From assembly GCA_007130695.1 (NCBI GenBank), contig SLRZ01000196.1:1-34655 (forward strand): a stretch of 34,655 nucleotides of DNA, in the 5' to 3' direction. Below are positions 16,260 to 34,513 of the stretch, piece after piece. A program made the translations under genes and the position numbers. This DNA is from Nitriliruptoraceae bacterium (lineage in GTDB: Bacteria; Actinomycetota; Nitriliruptoria; Nitriliruptorales; Nitriliruptoraceae). Below the pieces are notes generated by a model. The model saw only the letters and a list, made by a program, of their open reading frames with translations. It was not told the DNA's origin and did not search any database. How positions within the stretch are numbered: position 1 is the first letter of the stretch; each line of letters begins with the position of its first letter.

Positions 16260-17233
16260 TCCGCACGCGCCTGACCGAACTGCTCGGCGTCGACCATCCG
16301 GTCATGCTCGCCGGGATGTCGGGGGTCTCCTACCACGCGCTGACCGCCGCGGTCTCCGAGGCCGGCGGGTACGGCTGCCTCGGGGCGACCACGATCCCCG
16401 CCGAGGAGATGATCGTCGAGATGCGCGCGACGCGGGAGGCGACCGACCGGCCCTTCGGGGTCGACCTGCTCGCCCCCATGACCGGCGACTTCGTCGACCG
16501 GGTGCAGTCGGTCATCGACGAGGGCGCCAAGCTGTTCGTCGCCGGGCTGGGGATCCCCGCCGAGGTCGTGGAGCGCTGTCACCGCAACGGGGTGCTCGTC
16601 GGCAGCATGTGCGGCAAGGTGGACCACGCCCGACGGGCGGTGGACGCCGGCTGCGACCTCGTCATCGCCCAGGGCACCGAGGCCGGTGGCCACACCGGCA
16701 AGGTGGCCACCCTGCCGCTGGTCCCCCAGGTCGTCGACGCGGTCGGCGCCCACGTGCCGGTCGTCGCGGCCGGCGGCATCTTCGACGGACGCGGCCTGGC
16801 CGCCGCCCTGGCGCTCGGCGCCGACGGGGTCTGGGTCGGCACCCGGTTCGTGGCCACCCACGAGGCCCGGGTCCAGGCCGGGTTCAAGGAACGGCTGCTC
16901 GAGGCCGGCGAGTCCGAGACGGTGGTGACCACGGCCTACACCGGCAAGACCTGCCGGGTCATCGCCAACGAGTACACGAGCTACTTCGAACAGCACCCCG
17001 AGGAGCTGCAGGCGTTCCCCCAGCAGGCGATCCGTGCGATCGAGGACGGGGCGAACCACCTCGGTTCCCCCGAGGCGACGCAGATCGACCCGGCACGAGA
17101 GTTCTACCCGGCCGGGCAGGCCGCGGGGGCGATCGACGGGCTCGAGCGGGCGGGTGACGTGGTCACCGGCATGGTCGAGGAGGCCGAGCGGGTCATCGCC
17201 GGGCTGCGTCCCGTCGTGCTGGAGGGCCGATGA
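16256..17233 (+). CDS. Nitronate monooxygenase-like flavoprotein
   Basis: ATGA overlap with the thiolase-like gene; VDHPVMLAGMSGVSYHALTAAVSEAGGYGCLG, VIAQGTEAGGHTGKVATLPLVPQVVDAV, VPVVAAGGIFDGRGLAAALALGADGVWVGTRFVAT. Confidence 0.92.
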   Translation: MIRTRLTELLGVDHPVMLAGMSGVSYHALTAAVSEAGGYGCLGATTIPAEEMIVEMRATREATDRPFGVDLLAPMTGDFVDRVQSVIDEGAKLFVAGLGIPAEVVERCHRNGVLVGSMCGKVDHARRAVDAGCDLVIAQGTEAGGHTGKVATLPLVPQVVDAVGAHVPVVAAGGIFDGRGLAAALALGADGVWVGTRFVATHEARVQAGFKERLLEAGESETVVTTAYTGKTCRVIANEYTSYFEQHPEELQAFPQQAIRAIEDGANHLGSPEATQIDPAREFYPAGQAAGAIDGLERAGDVVTGMVEEAERVIAGLRPVVLEGR

Positions 17234-19122
17234 GCGTCGACGAGAAGCTCATCCGGGCGGCGGTCGACTGCGCGGAGGTGCCCGCGCTGCTGCCGGCCGT
17301 CGCGCAGCTGACGAACGACGAGACGCTGCTGCGCGAGGACCTGCGCCCCGACCCCGACCGCCTGCTCGAACCGGACGCCGGGCTGACGCCCGAACAGCTC
17401 GACACGGCACGCGACCTCGCGTTCGAGGCGCTGCGCGACCATCTCGCCGCCGGCGCCCCGGCCGGCGAGGTCGACCCGGACCGCCTGCGCCGCCTGTTGA
17501 CCTTCGTCGTGGGCGACGACGCGGTGGTCGGGGAGTACCTCCCGTTGTTCCGTGAGGAGCTGTGCGCCGCCGGTGAGGACCCGCGTGCGCCGGGGTGGCA
17601 CAAGGACGAGGTCGCACCCGACACGTCCTTCCGGGTCGCGATCGTCGGCGCGGGGATGTCCGGACTGCTCGCCGCGTACCGGTGCCGGCAGGCCGGGCTC
17701 GACGTGGTGGTCATCGACAAGAACCCCGACGTCGGTGGGACCTGGCTGGAGAACTCCTACCCGGGCTGCCGGGTGGACGTCCCCAACCACTTCTACAGCT
17801 ACTCGTTCGTCCAGCACGACTGGCCGCAGTACTTCTCCACCCAGCCGGTGCTGCTGGACTACTTTCGTCGCTGCGCGGAACAGTTCGGCGTCCTCGACGA
17901 CATCCGGTTCTCCACCGAGGTCACCGAGGCCGTCTACGACGAGGACCGCGAGCGGTGGTCGCTGTCCCTGCGTACCGACGAGGGGGAGGAGACCCTCGAG
18001 GCCCACGCGGTGATCAGCGCGGTCGGCCAACTCAACCGCCCCTCGTTCCCCGACATCCCCGGCCGCGACCGCTTCGAGGGCCCGGCGTTCCACTCCGCCG
18101 AGTGGGACCACGGGGTGACGCTGGAGGGTGCCCGGGTGGCCGTCATCGGCACCGGCGCGAGCGCCGTGCAGCTGATCCCGCACGTGGCCGAGCGGGCCGA
18201 ACGCCTCCTGGTCTTCCAGCGCACGCCGAACTGGTTCGTGCCCACCCCCGAGTACCAGCAGGACATTCCCGAGGCGCTGCGCTGGCTCCAGCGCCACGTG
18301 CCGGCCTACGCCTCCTGGTACCGCTTCTGGTTGTTCTGGCGGAACACCGAGGGAATGCTGGCCGCCACCGAGATCGACGAGGGCTGGGACGACCCGCGCT
18401 CGACCGGCGTGATCAACGACGTCCTGCGGGAACTGCTCACCGCCCACCTGCACAACGAGTTCGTCGAGGCGCCCGACCTGCTCGACGACGTCGTGCCGAC
18501 CTACCCGCCGTCCGCCAAGCGGGTGATCCGTGACGACGGGACCTGGGCGCGCACGCTGCAGCGCGACGACGTCGACCTGCTCACCGACGACATCGCGGAG
18601 ATCACCCCCCGCGGGGTGCGCACCGCCGACGGGACGGAGCACGAGGTCGACGTGATCGTCTACGGAACGGGTTTCCAGGCCTCGCGGTTCCTCACGCCGA
18701 TGCGGGTCGTGGGCCGCGACGGCGTCGACCTGCACGAACACTGGGACGGTGACGCACGGGCCTATCTCGGCATCAACGTGCCGGGGTTCCCGAACCTGTT
18801 CTGCCTGTACGGCCCGAACACCAACATCGTCATCAACGGCAGCATCATCTACTTCTCCGAGTGCTCGGTGAGCTACGTCATGGAGTGCCTGCGGCTCCTG
18901 CTCGAACAGGGGCACCGGTCGATGGACGTACGACCGGAGGTCCACGACGAGTACAACGACTGGATCGACCGGGGCAACGAGCAGCGGGTCTGGAGCGTTC
19001 CCGGGGTCAACAGTTGGTACAAGAACGCCACCGGACGTTCGGCGCAGAACTGGCCGTTCTCCCTGCTCGAGTACTGGAAGCAGACGCGCCGACCCCGGCC
19101 ACGGGACTACGAGTTACGCTGA
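17230..19122 (+). CDS. Flavin-dependent Baeyer-Villiger monooxygenase, HAPMO-like with N-terminal extension
   Basis: ATGA overlap; Rossmann [20 protein letters not shown] fingerprint [12 protein letters not shown] (FxGxxxHxxxW[D/P]), second Rossmann [12 protein letters not shown]; about 135-residue N-terminal extension. Confidence 0.93.
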
Positions 19123-22167: not shown

Positions 22168-22187
22168 GCCGAAGTAGTTTGCGCCGC

Positions 22188-23723
22188 ATGAGGCGCCGGG
22201 GCACCCAGAGCGACGGCGGGGCTGCGGCCCCGTGTCCGTCGGAGGGCGCGACGGATGGGCGTGGGCGCTGGTACCCGTGGGTCGTGATGGGGGTGGTGCT
22301 GGCGGGCAGCTATCTCGTCGTGCTCAACACCACTGTGCTGGGTGTGGCCCTGCCCGACATCTCCCGGGATCTCGGTCCGGGCGCCCGGTTGGACGCGGAC
22401 TGGGTCATCACCACCTACCTGCTCGCGGTGGTGGGCGTGCAGCCCGCCACCTCGTGGCTCGCGGATCGTCTGGGGCACAAGCGCCTCTACGTCGGCTGCC
22501 TGGTCGGCTTCGCGCTGGGCTCGCTGCTGTGCGCCCTCGCGCCGACCATGGAGACCCTGCTGGTGGCCCGGTTCGTGCAGGGCGCGGGTGGCGGTGCGCT
22601 CATGCCGCTGGGCATGGCCATGGTCCTGGACGTCTTCCCCCCGCACCGTCGGGGCTTCGTCCTGGGGGTGCGCGGGGTGGCGATCATGGCCGGACCGGCG
22701 CTGGGTCCGCCCATCGGCGGCGTCATCGTCACCCAGGCCAGCTGGCGGTGGATCTTCGGTGCCCTGGTGCCGATCGCCGTCCTCGCGGTGGTGCTGGCGG
22801 CACGGCTGCTGCGCGACCCGGGCCACCGGGCGCACCGACCGTTGGACAAGGGCGGCTGGGTGCTCGCGTTCCTCGGTATCGGCCTGGTAGTGGTCGCGGC
22901 CCGCCAGGCCGCCGACTGGGGGTTCACGGCGCCCGCCACCTGGTCCACCTTCCTCCTCGGGGTCGGCCTGCTGCTGGTGCTGGGGGTGCGCTCCCGCGGC
23001 CGACCGCACCCCATCATCGAGCCACGACTGTTCGCGGTGCCCCTCTACGCGCTCTCGCTCGTGATGGTCTGGCTCGTGACGGTCGTGCTCTACGCCCGGC
23101 TGAACTTCCTGCCGATCGAGCTGCAGGTCGTGCGCGGCCTGCCGGCCCAGCAGGTGGGGTTCATCCTGGTGCCCTCGGCCCTCGGGCTGGCCGTGACGAT
23201 GGCCATGGGCGGCTGGCTCGCCGACCGCGTCGGCGCCCGTGTGCCGACGATGGTGGGCCTGAGCGTGCTGAGCCTGACGACCTGGCAGCTTTCCTCACTG
23301 GAGCCCACGACGCAGGTGTCGTGGATCGTGGGGGTGCTGCTGCTCCAGGGGCTGGGCAGCGGGCTCATGCGCATCCCCGTCAACGTCACCGGGATGAACG
23401 CCCTGGGCAACCGCGACATCACCCAGGGGGCGGCGCTTCGCTCGTTGAACCGCCAGGTGGCCGGCGCCCTGGCCGTGGCGGTGCTGGCCGGGCTGCTCAC
23501 CCTCCAGCTCGGCTCGATCGCGCCCGAGGTCACCACCGCCGCCGAGATCGCCGAGGCCCAGGCGGCCTACAACTCGCTGTTCCGGGTGGCGTTCGTGTTC
23601 GTCCTGCTCGCACTGTGCGGGTCGGTCTTCATGCCGGGAAAGCGCCGGATGGCCGAGCTGCAGGCGGAGCGGGCCCGCGAGTACGCCGACGAGGAGGCGC
23701 GGGGCCCGGACTCTGACCGCTGA
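22188..23723 (+). CDS. MFS transporter, DHA2/EmrB-QacA family
   Basis: Many hydrophobic segments; motif A-like WLADRLGHKRLYVGCL, motif C GPALGPPIGGVI, antiporter-type length. Confidence 0.92.
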   Translation: MRRRGTQSDGGAAAPCPSEGATDGRGRWYPWVVMGVVLAGSYLVVLNTTVLGVALPDISRDLGPGARLDADWVITTYLLAVVGVQPATSWLADRLGHKRLYVGCLVGFALGSLLCALAPTMETLLVARFVQGAGGGALMPLGMAMVLDVFPPHRRGFVLGVRGVAIMAGPALGPPIGGVIVTQASWRWIFGALVPIAVLAVVLAARLLRDPGHRAHRPLDKGGWVLAFLGIGLVVVAARQAADWGFTAPATWSTFLLGVGLLLVLGVRSRGRPHPIIEPRLFAVPLYALSLVMVWLVTVVLYARLNFLPIELQVVRGLPAQQVGFILVPSALGLAVTMAMGGWLADRVGARVPTMVGLSVLSLTTWQLSSLEPTTQVSWIVGVLLLQGLGSGLMRIPVNVTGMNALGNRDITQGAALRSLNRQVAGALAVAVLAGLLTLQLGSIAPEVTTAAEIAEAQAAYNSLFRVAFVFVLLALCGSVFMPGKRRMAELQAERAREYADEEARGPDSDR

Positions 23724-23746: not shown

Positions 23747-23766
23747 TGTGACATCAAACGATGATG
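23747..23766 (+). promoter_or_regulatory. Putative operator, copy 1 (TGTGACATCA box)
   Basis: TGTGACATCA at 23747-23756, 57 nt upstream of ATG 23804; includes CATCA-AACGA-TGATG. Same decamer occurs at 25612. Confidence 0.5.
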
Positions 23767-23803
23767 ACGTAAGGTGCGCCCGCCACCATGGGAGGGGAGC
23801 CTG

Positions 23804-25585
23804 ATGGGCGTCGCACTGTTCGTCGCGGAATCGTCGAGCGAGATCATGGGCGGCAGCGCCCTGGCGAGCTGGCGGCCGGTGGTGATCCTGCTGGGGATCG
23901 TCGGCGGGATCATGGTCCTGCTGTGGGCCCGCGGCGAGGCGGGTGACCACGACAACGCGCTCGCCCGCTTCCTCCTGCGTGGGCCGGGCGCCCTGGCCCG
24001 GGTGACGGGACTGCCCGCCTGGGCGGCCGTCGCCGTGGTCGGGACCTTCGGGGGGTTGCTGGTCGCGGGGTACGGCTTCTACACCGACGTCGCCTACCAC
24101 GTGGCCTACGGCCGCGACGAGACGTTGTTCACGGCACCGCACACGGCGATCTTCGTGGGCCTGTGCCTCATCGCCGCGTCTTCGTTCCTGGGGATCGCCA
24201 CGGCGCACCTCGAGCGCGCCGACGTCGGGGTCCGCCTGTCGGGGATCCGGGTGCCGTGGTCGCTGCTGCCTCTGACCGTCCTCGGGACTTCGGCGGTGCT
24301 CGGCTTCCCGATCGACGAACTCTGGCATGCGCAGTACGGCGTGGACGTCACCATGTGGAGCCCGCCGCACATGCTGATGATCATGGGCGCGGCGATGTCG
24401 GGCACCGCGGTGTGGCTCGTGCTGGCCGAGGCCGGCGCGGCCGCGCACGAGTCCAAGCGCAATCTGGCGCTGCACGCCATCACCGCGACGCTCGCCATCC
24501 AGGGGTTGGCCGCGCCGCTGGGTGAGTTCAGCTTCGGGGTCCCGCAGTTCCAGCAGCTCTACCACCCGGTGATCGTCATGATCGGCGGTGGCGCCCTGGT
24601 GGCCGCCCGCCTCGTGCTGGGTCGGGGCTGGACGCTCGGGGTGCTGGTGATCTCGTTCGCGTTGAGCCAGATCGACGCCCTGCTGCTGGCCGACAGCTCA
24701 CCGGTGGCCACGGTGGAACCCATGCTGTGGCTCGGCTCTGCGGTCGCCATCGAGCTCGTCGCGCTCGTGTTCGGCACGGACCGGGTTCTTCGCTTCGCGG
24801 TCGTCTCCGGACTCGGGGTGGCCACGGTCGGCCTGGCCACCGAGTGGTGGTGGAACAGCACCTACGCCTGGCAACCGTGGACGACGTCGCTGCTGCCCGA
24901 GGTACTCCTGGTCGCCGCCCCGGCCGCGGTGGCGATGGCCGTCGTGGCCGCGGGCTTCGGTGGTGCGCTGACCTGGCGACGCGACCTGGTGCCCGCCCCG
25001 GCGATCCTCGGCGGCCTGGTCGTGATCTTCGTGGCCCTGGCGGTCCCGCTGCCCCGCACGGTCTCGGAGGTCGCCGCGGCGGTGACCGTGCACGAGCAGG
25101 GGGAGGGGCTGGCCACGATCGAGGCCCGGCTCGACCCGCCGGATGCGGCCGAGGACGCCCGGTGGTTCATCGCGGCGGCCTGGCAGGGGGGCGGCAACCA
25201 GGTGTCGGACATGCGGCACCTGGGAAACGGGCACTACGTCTCCGAGGAGCCGATCGAGGTCGACGGCGGCTGGAAGAGCATGCTGCGCCTGCACGTGGGC
25301 TCGGACATGATGGCCGTCCCGCTGCGCATGCCGGCCGACCCGGAGTTCGGGCTCGACGCCATCCCGTTGGAGGACCGCACGCAGCCATTCGAGTCCGAGC
25401 GCCACTACCTGCTGCGTGAGACCACCGACGGCCCCCAGGGGCTCGCGATCGCGGTCCGGTTGCTGTACGCCGCCCTGACCGTCGCGTTCCTCGCGGCCAT
25501 GATCGTCGCCAGCCGTCGCGTGGCGATGGCGCGCGCGCCGGTGACCGACGAGGCGCGGAGGGGGGAGGTGCCGGCCGGCGTCTGA
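23804..25585 (+). CDS. Polytopic membrane protein of unknown function with C-terminal soluble domain (paralogue 1)
   Basis: ATG 23804 with GGGAGGGGAG RBS; multiple TM segments; motifs DVAYHVAYGRDETLFTAPH and DELWHAQYGVDVTMWSPPH; FGVPQFQQLYHPV; C-terminal domain LDPPDAAEDARWF...GGWKSMLRLHVGSDMMAVPLRMPADP. Confidence 0.85.
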   Translation: MGVALFVAESSSEIMGGSALASWRPVVILLGIVGGIMVLLWARGEAGDHDNALARFLLRGPGALARVTGLPAWAAVAVVGTFGGLLVAGYGFYTDVAYHVAYGRDETLFTAPHTAIFVGLCLIAASSFLGIATAHLERADVGVRLSGIRVPWSLLPLTVLGTSAVLGFPIDELWHAQYGVDVTMWSPPHMLMIMGAAMSGTAVWLVLAEAGAAAHESKRNLALHAITATLAIQGLAAPLGEFSFGVPQFQQLYHPVIVMIGGGALVAARLVLGRGWTLGVLVISFALSQIDALLLADSSPVATVEPMLWLGSAVAIELVALVFGTDRVLRFAVVSGLGVATVGLATEWWWNSTYAWQPWTTSLLPEVLLVAAPAAVAMAVVAAGFGGALTWRRDLVPAPAILGGLVVIFVALAVPLPRTVSEVAAAVTVHEQGEGLATIEARLDPPDAAEDARWFIAAAWQGGGNQVSDMRHLGNGHYVSEEPIEVDGGWKSMLRLHVGSDMMAVPLRMPADPEFGLDAIPLEDRTQPFESERHYLLRETTDGPQGLAIAVRLLYAALTVAFLAAMIVASRRVAMARAPVTDEARRGEVPAGV

Positions 25586-25593
25586 GCCACCCG

Positions 25594-25634
25594 TTGCATT
25601 ACACTGGACAGTGTGACATCATCTACTGTCACAC
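25594..25634 (+). promoter_or_regulatory. Promoter/operator region, copy 2
   Basis: TTGCAT-N17-CATCAT possible promoter; ACACTG-GA-CAGTGT palindrome (25601-25614); GTGTGACA-N8-TGTCACAC perfect inverted repeat (25611-25634). Confidence 0.6.
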
Positions 25635-25667
25635 GATCAGGCTCTGTCGCTGCGGGGAGACACGCAC

Positions 25668-27467
25668 ATGACCGCCGTACCGTTCCTTGCCCAGCAGGCC
25701 GATGAACTCGCCGGCGGCAGCGCGATCGCCGAATGGCATCCGCTGGTGATACTGCTGTCGGTGGTCGCCGGAATCATGCTCCTGCTGATCGTCCGCGGCG
25801 CGCCGGGGGACCACCGCTCGGCCGTAGCCCGGTTCGTGCTGCGCATGCCCAACCAGCTCGCGAAGCTGACCGGGATGCCCGCGTGGGCCGCCACCGCCTG
25901 GGCCGGCACCCTCGGTGGTCTGGTCATCGCCGCCTACGGCTTCTTCACCGACGTCGCCTACCACGTGGCCTACGGCCGGGACGAGACCCTCTTCACGGCC
26001 CCGCACACCGCGATCTTCGTCGGGGTCTGCCTGATCGCCGCGTCCGCCGCCGCGGGCATCCTGGTCGCCAACCTCACCGGCGCCCGGCACGGCACGCGCC
26101 TGTCCGGCATCCAGGTGCCCTGGTCGTTGATCCCGCTGGTCGTGCTCGGATCCGGCGCGGTCGCCGGTTTCGGGATCGACGAGGTCTGGCACGCCCAGTA
26201 CGGCGTCGACGTGACCATGTGGAGCGCCCCCCACATGCTGATGATCCTGGGGGCCGCGCTGTCCAGCACGGGCGCCTGGTTCGTGCTGGCGGAGGGGGGC
26301 GTCCGCCCGGGCACCTCGCGTCGGGCCACCGCCCTGCACGCCGTGACCGCGATGACCGTCCTGGTCGCGCTGTTCGCGCCCCTCGGCGAGTTCGACTTCG
26401 GAGTGCCGCAGTTCCAGCAGCTCTACCACCCCGTGCTGGTCCTGATCGCCTCCGCCGCCGCGCTGGTCGCCGTGCGCCTCGTGCTGGGCCGCGGCTGGAC
26501 CCTCGGGGTCCTCGCGATTGCGTGGGTCGCCGGCAACCTCGACACGGCCCTGCTCGCCGGCAGCGCGCCCGTGGAGACCCGCGACTCGGCGATCCTCCTC
26601 GGCTCCGCGGTGGTCGTCGAGGTCGTGGCGCTGCTCGTCGGCACCCGGCATCCCGTGCGGTTCGCGGTGCTCGCCGGTCTCGGCGTCTCCACCCTCGGGC
26701 TCGCGACCGAGTGGTGGTGGAACAGCCAGGCACACCAGCCCTGGACCACCTCCCTGCTCCCCGACGTCCTGGTGGTGGGGATCCCCGCCGCGGTCGCCGC
26801 CGCCGTCGTCGCCGCGGCCTACGCCGGCGCGGTCCTGGGCCGACCGGGTCTGGTGTCCGGACGGCTCCTCGCCGTCGCGCTCCTCGTCGTCGGCTTGGCG
26901 CTCGCGGTGCCCTTCCCCCGCACGGTCGGGGACGTGGCGGTGCAGATCAGCGTCGAGGACCAGGGCGACGGCATGGCACTCGTGCACGCCCAGCTCGATC
27001 CGCCGGATGCGGCCGAGGACGCGCGATGGTTCTACGCCGGGGCCTGGCAGGGCGGTGGCAACACCGTCGCGCACATGCAGCCGCTGGGGGAGGGCCGGTA
27101 CGTGGCCGAGGAGCCGATCGAGGTCCACGGTCCCTGGAAGGCCGTGCTGCGCCTGCACGTGGGCTCCGACATGATGGCCGCGCCCATCCGCATGCCCGCC
27201 GACCCCATGTTCGACCTCGAGGAGATCCCGCTCGAGGACCGGGCCATGGCCTTCGAGGCGGAGACCCGCTACCTGCTGCGTGAGACCAACGACGGGCCAC
27301 CCGCGCTGGCCGTCGCGGTGCGGCTGCTGTTCGTCGCCCTGGCCGCCGCCTGGCTCGCCGCCATGTGCAACGGCGGCCGGCGGCTGGCGGCGCGTGGCGA
27401 GCACGATGCCGGGCCCGAGGCGCCGGACGCGCCGCCCGTGACCGCCACCCTGACGCGCAGCGGCTGA
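25668..27467 (+). CDS. Polytopic membrane protein of unknown function with C-terminal soluble domain (paralogue 2)
   Basis: ATG 25668 with GGGGAGA RBS; collinear with the 23804 gene over its length; DVAYHVAYGRDETLFTAPH, DEVWHAQYGVDVTMWSAPH, FGVPQFQQLYHPV, LDPPDAAEDARWF. Confidence 0.87.
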   Translation: MTAVPFLAQQADELAGGSAIAEWHPLVILLSVVAGIMLLLIVRGAPGDHRSAVARFVLRMPNQLAKLTGMPAWAATAWAGTLGGLVIAAYGFFTDVAYHVAYGRDETLFTAPHTAIFVGVCLIAASAAAGILVANLTGARHGTRLSGIQVPWSLIPLVVLGSGAVAGFGIDEVWHAQYGVDVTMWSAPHMLMILGAALSSTGAWFVLAEGGVRPGTSRRATALHAVTAMTVLVALFAPLGEFDFGVPQFQQLYHPVLVLIASAAALVAVRLVLGRGWTLGVLAIAWVAGNLDTALLAGSAPVETRDSAILLGSAVVVEVVALLVGTRHPVRFAVLAGLGVSTLGLATEWWWNSQAHQPWTTSLLPDVLVVGIPAAVAAAVVAAAYAGAVLGRPGLVSGRLLAVALLVVGLALAVPFPRTVGDVAVQISVEDQGDGMALVHAQLDPPDAAEDARWFYAGAWQGGGNTVAHMQPLGEGRYVAEEPIEVHGPWKAVLRLHVGSDMMAAPIRMPADPMFDLEEIPLEDRAMAFEAETRYLLRETNDGPPALAVAVRLLFVALAAAWLAAMCNGGRRLAARGEHDAGPEAPDAPPVTATLTRSG

Positions 27468-27480
27468 CCTCTCGGGCCCG

Positions 27481-27888
27481 TCAGTCCTGGGAGCCCGGGA
27501 GCTTGACCGCGAGGACCGGACAGTCGGCGTTCAGCAGCAGTTCCTGCGCGGTGGAGCCCATCACGAGCTTGCCCACGGGCGAGCGCCGGCGCAGCCCGAT
27601 GATCAGCAGCTCGACCTCGTTCTTGCGGGCCGCGGCCAGCAGATCCTCCGCCAGGGAGTCACCCACGGTGTAGTCGAGGATCCGGTGCTCGATCCCCTCC
27701 TCGGTCAGCTGGGTGCCGAGCTTCTCGAGTTCCTGGCGATAGGTCTCGGCCTCGGCCTCGTCGACGCTGCCCCCACGCTGGGTGTTGAGGACCAACAGTT
27801 CGCCCCCACGGAGGCGGGCTTCCTCGATGGCGTGCTGGACCACGGCCAGGCCCAACTCCGTCCGTGTGTAGCCGACCAGGATTCGCAT
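27481..27888 (-). CDS. Universal stress protein (UspA family)
   Basis: ATG 27888; MRILVGYTRTELGLAVVQHAIEEARLRGGELLVLNT and GLRRRSPVGKLVMGSTAQELLLNADCPVLAVK (Usp ATP-binding-type motif). Confidence 0.93.
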   Translation of the reverse strand: MRILVGYTRTELGLAVVQHAIEEARLRGGELLVLNTQRGGSVDEAEAETYRQELEKLGTQLTEEGIEHRILDYTVGDSLAEDLLAAARKNEVELLIIGLRRRSPVGKLVMGSTAQELLLNADCPVLAVKLPGSQD

Positions 27889-27978
27889 GCGTGAGGCCTC
27901 CGCTCGATCGGGCGCCGAGCGTAGTCGCGTTGTGGCCCGCCACACTCCTCGACCCGGAGACAATCCGTGGCCGGCCGA

Positions 27979-32629
<4,651 letters not shown>

Positions 32630-32630
<1 letters not shown>

Positions 32631-34513
32631 CAGGTCTCCTCCCGGAGCAGTACGAGGGCGGCGTGACGCCGCACGGTGGTTCGCAGGATGTCGTCGGTGG
32701 TCGTCACGGCACTGCCTCCGGGGCCACCCCACCGGGGGTCGGCCGTGTCGAAGGCCGTCCGCCAGGCGCCACCCGCGTCGGGCACCACCACCTCGGCGTC
32801 GCCCTCGTCGGCGTTCAGGACGACCAGCAGCTGGCGCCCCCCGGACCGGTCGCGGCGGCGCAGGACCAGGGCCTGATGGCCGGGGACCGGGAACGGTTCG
32901 ACGTCGGGTGCCGCCGGGTCGGTGATCAGCGGCTCGTCGTGGCGCAGGGCGAGCAGGGCGCGGTAGACGTCCCGGAGGTGGGCGTGCTCGCTCCGGTCCC
33001 GCACGGCACGGTCCAGCCGGCTGCGCTCGAAGGTGGCCGGATCCTGCGGATCGGGGGCCTGGCCCTTCCACTGTTCGAACGCGGCGAACTCGGCCCGGCG
33101 GCCCTGACGGACCGCGTCGCCGAGCTCGGGGTCGAGGAAGGACGTGAAGAACTGGAAGGGCGCCGGATCTGCGTACTCCTCGCCCATGAACAGCAGGGGC
33201 ACGAACGGGGACGTCAGCATCGCCGCGGCCGCCAGCTTGCACCCCTCGAGGTCGGTGAGTTCGCCCAGCCGCTCGCCGTGCTTGCGGTTGCCGACCTGGT
33301 CGTGGTTCTGGACGCACACCACGAAGCGGTCGTAGGGCACGTCCGGGGCCGGTCGGCCGACGGTGCGCCCGCGGCTGGGGGAGTAGCGGCCCGCGTAGAC
33401 GTAGCGGTCGCGGAGTTGGGCGACGAGGTCGCCCAACCCGCCGTAGTCGGCGTAGTAGCCGTCCCGTTCGCCGGTCAGGGCCACGTGCATCGCATGGTGG
33501 AAGTCGTCGGCCCACTGGCCGTCGAGGCCCATGCCGCCGGCCTCGGGATGGCGCAGCAGCCGGGCGTCGCACAGGTCGCTCTCGGCCACCACGTGGACCC
33601 GACGGCCGGCCGCCTGTCCCGCCTCGTGCACGGCACCGGCGATCTCCTCCAGCAAGTGGGTGGCCGACTGATCGAGGATCGCGTGCACCGCGTCGAGGCG
33701 CAGGCCGTCGATGCCGAACTCCGTGACCCAGCGGACCGCGTTGTCCACGACGAACCGTCGTACCGCGTCCGAGTCGGGTCCGTCGGCGTTCAGCGCCGGT
33801 CCCCACGGTGTCACGTAGCGGTCGGTGAAGTACGGCCCGAAGTCGTCGAGATGGTTGCCCTCCGGCCCGAGGTGGTTGTAGACGACGTCGAGCCAGACGG
33901 CCAGACCCCGGGTATGGGCCGCATCGACCAGGCGGCGCAGGCCGGCAGGGCCGCCGTAGCTGTCCTGGACCGCGTAGGGCAGCACACCGTCGTAGCCCCA
34001 GTTGCGCTCGCCCGGGAACTGCGCGACCGGCAGGAGCTCCAGGCTGGTGACACCGAGGTCGACGAGGTCGTCGAGGTGCTCGATGACGCCGTCGAACGTG
34101 CCGGGGTGACTGAAGGTGCCCACGTGCAGCTCGTAGAGCACCTGCCGGTGCATCGCCGGTGCGACGAACCCGGCCGGCAGCTCCACCGGTCCGGGTTCGT
34201 CGACGGCGGAGGGGCCCTCGACGCCCTGGGGCTGCCAGCGGGAGGCGGGGTCGGCACGGTCGACGACGTCGCCGTCGGCGCGATGGAGGCGGTAGCGGTA
34301 GGTCGTCCCAGGCGGCGCGTCCGCGACCACGTGGTGGTAGCCGTCCGGGAGCGGCCGCATGGCGAGACGGGACGTGGGCGTCACGGACGGGTCACCCGTC
34401 GGTTCAGCGAGCAGCAGCTCCACCCGTTGTGCGCGGGGTGCCCACACGAGGAAGGAGGACTCGCTCCCGCCGAGCCATCGTGCGCCCAGGGGGAGTCGGG
34501 AAGGATCGGACAC
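32630..34513 (-). CDS. treZ: Malto-oligosyltrehalose trehalohydrolase
   Basis: [97 protein letters not shown] junction with treX. Confidence 0.96.

Follow-up and report, generated by a model that had tools for sequence, protein, structure and literature searches.

A tandem gene pair from a Nitriliruptoraceae bacterium probably belongs to an undescribed superfamily of PmoC-like membrane metalloproteins

Introduction

Two adjacent genes of a Nitriliruptoraceae bacterium (Actinomycetota; assembly GCA_007130695.1), located in the 34,655-nucleotide stretch of contig SLRZ01000196.1 analyzed here and referred to as the window, encode large membrane proteins, copy A and copy B, that have no match in Pfam, NCBIfam or PDB (searched with Pfam, NCBIfam, phmmer, and hmmsearch against PDB). 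What are these proteins, and do they act as a pair? The first-pass annotation of this DNA, made from the sequence alone, described them as adjacent, co-oriented and collinear paralogues outside any catalogued family and proposed a two-component membrane system, that is, a heteromeric enzyme or transporter. The description was borne out; the two-component system was not. Our results indicate instead that A and B probably arose by an old tandem duplication and belong to a superfamily of PmoC-like membrane metalloproteins that had not been described. In methane and ammonia oxidation the active site resides in PmoC, which, to our knowledge, is known only within three-subunit XmoCAB enzymes. If our reading is true, natural PmoC-like proteins that carry both ligand triads and an extra domain, and that are apparently free of PmoA- and PmoB-type subunits, would allow a direct test of the minimal requirements of this active site, and the family would serve as an outgroup in tracing how the methane and ammonia monooxygenases originated.

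Two paralogues under protein-level constraint

Copy A (positions 23804-25585, 593 codons) and copy B (25668-27467, 599 codons) are both encoded on the + strand and start with ATG. The ATG of copy A is preceded by the ribosome-binding sequence GGAGGGGAG, and an alternative GTG start is possible at 23774. BLASTP aligned the two proteins collinearly, with 366 of 570 residues identical (64%) and 2 gaps. The protein blocks previously noted as identical in the two copies (25/25, 13/13 and 13/13 residues) were recovered, with matching residue numbers in both proteins (95, 244 and 443), and the corresponding DNA differs at synonymous sites (8/75, 3/39 and 3/39 nucleotides). By the Nei-Gojobori method, the synonymous divergence (dS) was 0.68 and the nonsynonymous divergence (dN) 0.29, the dS value being probably compressed by a GC content of 71-73%. 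The strong protein-level constraint that had been proposed for A and B is thus real. A third paralogue, 38% identical, is encoded elsewhere in the assembly, on a different contig (G000:C189, locus L003, 680-2635). It has a signal-peptide-like start ending in AFA ahead of HDPP, and cleavage at this point would leave a mature N-terminal histidine, as in PmoB and CopC.

A family defined by two invariant putative ligand triads

A profile search detected relatives in 47 of the 397 sampled Actinomycetota genomes, and the profile of a divergent subfamily detected them in 52 of 397, that is, in approximately one in eight genomes, those of mycobacteria-type organisms included. The members are annotated as hypothetical proteins, as is the relative encoded on the Mycolicibacterium vanbaalenii JOB5 plasmid. 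In all 49 aligned members, with identities down to approximately 22%, residues D95, H99, R104, H113, D171, H175 and H189 are kept; residue 105 is D or E, and several neighboring residues are nearly invariant. These positions form two motifs, D-x3-H-x12-14-H and D-x3-H-x13-H, separated by 52-66 residues (49/49), the loop of the first one varying in length from x12 to x14 among members. None of 6498 non-family open reading frames contained the six ligands together with R-[DE] in this pattern.

In copy A, the first motif (24086-24142, + strand) reads D95-x3-H99-x4-R104-D105-x7-H113 and the second (24314-24370, + strand) D171-x3-H175-x13-H189; in copy B, the equivalent residues (D95/H99/R104/H113 and D171/H175/H189) lie at 25950-26006 and 26178-26234 of the same strand. 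A set of shorter remote proteins of 360-430 residues ('DGWAH...FFTPWHA') was placed in the same superfamily by hhalign (probability 98.7%, E = 1.6e-16). The loci of this remote subfamily (L125, L126 and L128-L133; DGWAH...FFTPWHA...SPTHL) have no Pfam match. The open-access literature yielded no comparable PmoC-like or orphan homologues (subscription papers were not covered), and we consider that the family represents an undescribed superfamily and that no such protein had been recognized before in Actinomycetota genomes.

Relation to PmoC

In the particulate methane monooxygenase (pMMO), the CuC site is formed by Asp156, His160 and His173, and the CuD site by Asn227, His231 and His245, with Arg165 in the second sphere; CuC, a 2-His-1-Asp site, is modelled with copper (PMC12576850). 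The current view is that CuD, which has no charged ligand, is the active site of the enzyme (PMC11194816). We compared the family profile with nine actinobacterial and proteobacterial XmoC sequences using hhalign. The signal rose from P = 6.4e-4 with 16 family sequences to P = 7.4e-5 (probability 62%) with 43, and to P = 1.5e-5 (probability 80%, score 45.4) when the remote subfamilies were added. Without guidance, the alignment put in register the first motif with D156/H160/H173, R104 with the second-sphere Arg165, and the second motif with N227/H231/H245. In two runs the local alignment ended before the second motif or its last residue, whereas the 16-sequence and remote-subfamily runs spanned both motifs. 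The order and spacing of the two helix-end triads also agree (x3,x12 / x53 / x3,x13 in PmoC versus x3,x12-14 / x52-66 / x3,x13 in the family), the divergent subfamily having the exact x12 spacing of PmoC, and the arrangement of the transmembrane (TM) helices appears similar. The core was modelled with AlphaFold2 (pLDDT 89.7), and the model was searched with Foldseek against 350,542 PDB chains; among the matches listed, PmoC 7yzy_C had the highest probability (0.96), and a second PmoC, 7s4m_C, was found with 0.66.

Several observations weigh against this relation or against the same chemistry. The Foldseek E-value for PmoC (0.26) is not significant and the TM-scores are modest (0.38-0.42), so the fold search supports the relation with PmoC and does not prove it. 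Neither single-sequence searches nor hmmsearch matched the proteins to PmoC or AmoC, and the PmoC/AmoC/HmoC model PF04896 did not match A, B or any of 16 family members. In addition, the Asn of CuD is replaced by Asp in 49/49 members, which makes both family sites 2-His-1-carboxylate, so that their chemistry may differ or their metal may not be copper, and the cage of phenylalanines that surrounds CuD is not kept. The identity to PmoC is only about 20% over 100-114 columns, and with the nonsignificant E-value it would fit an unrelated multi-TM family, for example of transporters, in which D-x3-H motifs arose independently. However, such a coincidence would have to account for two triads, the arginine, and their order and spacing, and for PmoC also being first by probability in an independent fold search. 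It would also have to explain why the controls scored far lower: the best of 80 block-shuffled profiles reached 30.5 versus 45.4 for the real one, column and block shuffles of XmoC reached at most 25.8 and 28.5 versus 39.9, reversed profiles scored 14-17, and profiles of unrelated membrane proteins (HmoA, HmoB and a mycobacterial neighbor) 12-15. We therefore regard chance resemblance as quite improbable and a relation of the family to PmoC as very likely.

A further difference from the PmoC/AmoC/HmoC proteins is that the family members are longer (approximately 600 residues with 13 TM helices), carry a C-terminal beta domain, and have no xmoA or xmoB partners that we could find. No gene for a PmoA- or PmoB-type subunit lies beside the pair. 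In its own genome the PmoC model was silent (the same search found 3 of 297 genomes of the phylum). The models of PmoA (PF02461) and PmoB (PF04744) gave nothing there either, but the absence of these two is provisional, since both models were silent in their controls as well and the genome assembly is approximately 90% complete. Given the Asp in CuD, the missing phenylalanine cage, the lack of a Pfam match and the failure to find the other two subunits, these proteins were not filed as members of the copper membrane monooxygenases (CuMMO). The second half of the TM core was also evaluated as a PmoA relative and rejected (score only 13.6). Three of the sampled Actinomycetota genomes, all belonging to a single family (f17), contain genuine HmoCAB operons (L050, L051 and L052); these operons diverge from the plasmid-borne mycobacterial ones, with approximately 35% identity in subunit C. 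A search of viral contigs revealed no XmoC, and a search of a viral fold library gave nothing meaningful.

Architecture and C-terminal domain

The full AlphaFold2 model (mean pLDDT 85) has 13 helices that fit the predicted TM segments, with a beta domain between TM12 and TM13. The multi-TM core of the first-pass annotation was therefore retained, while its soluble C-terminal tail of roughly 180 residues was replaced by a beta domain (approximately residues 414-544, strands 424-528) followed by a further TM helix (545-576). This domain is encoded at 25043-25435 (+) in copy A and, collinearly, at 26907-27299 (+) in copy B. The numbers of lysine and arginine residues alternate in agreement with the positive-inside rule, and on this basis the motif loops (TM2-3 and TM4-5) and the beta domain are predicted outside the cytoplasm and the C-terminus inside.

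The beta domain weakly resembles the FixH/CcoH and YtkA-like domains (PF05751 and PF13115): like them, it is predicted as an extracytoplasmic Ig-like beta fold next to a TM helix, with the pattern 'G.Y....P...G.WK'. In one or two of 16 family members, FixH and YtkA were matched with E-values of 0.06 and 0.05; over all the searches the values ranged up to 0.19. All are below the Pfam cut-offs and, unlike in those proteins, the domain is fused to a large multi-TM core. Foldseek matched the domain to 9g6b_C, a chain of the cbb3-2 NOH complex (probability 0.82). The cupredoxin domains of PmoB are likewise extracytoplasmic beta domains attached to the membrane near a metal site, but the profile comparison with PF04744 was weak (score 21.7, P = 0.02, 28 columns) and does not support this assignment.

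Proposed function

We propose that the initial portion of each protein is the counterpart of CuMMO subunit C, and that the triads D95/H99/H113 and D171/H175/H189, together with R104, would stand at extracytoplasmic helix ends as the equivalents of CuC and CuD. There they would bind one or two metal ions; metal binding seems quite likely, and copper is the metal that we somewhat favor. The sites could then use oxygen in redox chemistry on a substrate that is small or hydrophobic and located at the outer membrane face, the FixH-like domain aiding metal loading or electron delivery, and each protein would probably work without PmoA or PmoB partners. Catalysis as an oxidase or monooxygenase is advanced only tentatively. 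More doubtful still is the broader idea that this is a widespread single-polypeptide relative of PmoC performing metal-dependent oxygen chemistry without the other subunits, in which case the PmoC-type site would be the core of a superfamily larger and older than the CuMMOs.

The main rival to catalysis is that the proteins handle copper: the sites would store, sense or pass it on the outside of the membrane, from where the FixH-like domain would deliver it to a cuproprotein such as an oxidase, as in FixGHIS/CcoGHIS and CopCD. This possibility, which we consider unlikely to a similar degree as the broader idea above, is consistent with the FixH/YtkA/CcoH-like character of the C-terminal domain and with the failure to find PmoA or PmoB in the genome. 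The M. vanbaalenii JOB5 copy has CopC directly upstream together with haem-copper oxidase genes, which fits copper handling and our main reading alike; the main reading also agrees with the multicopper oxidase gene that adjoins the remote member L125 on its downstream side and with the small cupredoxin-like lipoprotein of mycobacteria-type genomes described below. However, this copper context is not general, and the family does not match the Pfam models of CopC and CopD; copper genes are inconsistent neighbors, the pair of the window itself lying beside an efflux pump and trehalose genes, which counts against copper chemistry of either kind. The only neighbor shared broadly, in 11 genera, is a MerR regulator that is transcribed divergently; the example inspected contains no cysteine, unlike the CueR-type metal sensors, which carry it. 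Beyond MerR and TetR regulators, a Pfam tally of the immediate neighbors showed no common pathway. The conserved arginine next to the ligands, moreover, mirrors an active-site arrangement. A metalloenzyme of the same fold using another metal was also considered, since 2-His-1-carboxylate sites are typical of non-haem iron (or zinc) and the two might together make up a single dinuclear center. The invariant Asp in place of the CuD Asn would agree with this, and CuC itself has two His and one Asp; yet the pMMO site with precisely these ligands is modelled with copper, and an extracytoplasmic location favors copper over ferrous iron, which leaves the non-copper enzyme improbable, albeit less so than chance resemblance.

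Is the tandem pair conserved?

At the syntenic place of a genus-mate (locus L004, Nitriliruptoraceae), we observed a major facilitator superfamily (MFS) transporter, a single copy, a universal stress protein and TreY, in this order. In the tree, copy A grouped with the L004 gene (support 0.97) and copy B fell outside, indicating that the duplication is older than the split between A and the L004 gene, as the earlier proposal of an old duplication had it. Copy B is thus an old paralogue, absent or lost at the syntenic place in the genus-mate. Every other flanked locus examined held one copy, and in genomes with two copies these were far apart or on different contigs; therefore, the family as a whole is not characterized by a heteromeric two-gene system, and adjacency is not conserved in the sampled Actinomycetota loci. 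Homologues occurring almost always in single copy, without conserved adjacency, is one of the outcomes that the first-pass annotation had named as refuting its proposal. Both copies of the window are intact and constrained, and each has all the ligand residues, as would suit an obligate heteromeric membrane enzyme or transporter; against the single copies found elsewhere, including at the same locus of the genus-mate, we consider this arrangement very improbable. The 'membrane enzyme' part of that proposal is plausible in view of the candidate metal site, and A and B, each of which has an upstream region of its own, may have diverged in role within this lineage.

Upstream elements and gene neighborhood

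Upstream of copy B there is a perfect inverted repeat with 8-bp arms, GTGTGACA-N8-TGTCACAC (25611-25634, + strand), which is a candidate operator. The decamer TGTGACATCA occurs within it (25612-25621) and again upstream of copy A (23747-23756), and a related element, GACATCGAACGATGAT, is present at the same place in the genus-mate (L004, 860-877). Directly upstream of copy A is the gene for a DHA2-type MFS drug/efflux transporter (22179-23723, +; TIGR00711, 279 bits, over the cut-off), which also precedes the single copy of the genus-mate. Further upstream, at 4.7-7.5 kb, are a gene for a flavin-containing monooxygenase-like protein (Baeyer-Villiger type, PtlE-like; 17230-19122, +; below the curated cut-off) and an acetyl-CoA acetyltransferase-like gene. 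On the other side, a universal stress protein gene (27481-27963) separates the pair from a complete TreY-GlgX-TreZ trehalose synthesis cluster (27979-34513, - strand), which is convergent with the pair (TIGR02401, TIGR02100 and TIGR02402, over the cut-offs).

In five mycobacteria-type genera, the family gene is followed by genes for a small His-bearing lipoprotein and an unnamed multi-TM protein. The lipoprotein, with conserved HVHS and ELH, looks cupredoxin-like by eye and gave nothing above the Pfam cut-off. The mycobacterial neighbor ('AHG' membrane protein) was rejected as a relative of PmoA or PmoB (scores 14.6-18.4). The multi-TM protein (L089, 10548-12068) starts with 'AHGLGGSTDLPIP', has no Pfam or NCBIfam match, and has relatives in L060 and L088-L098.

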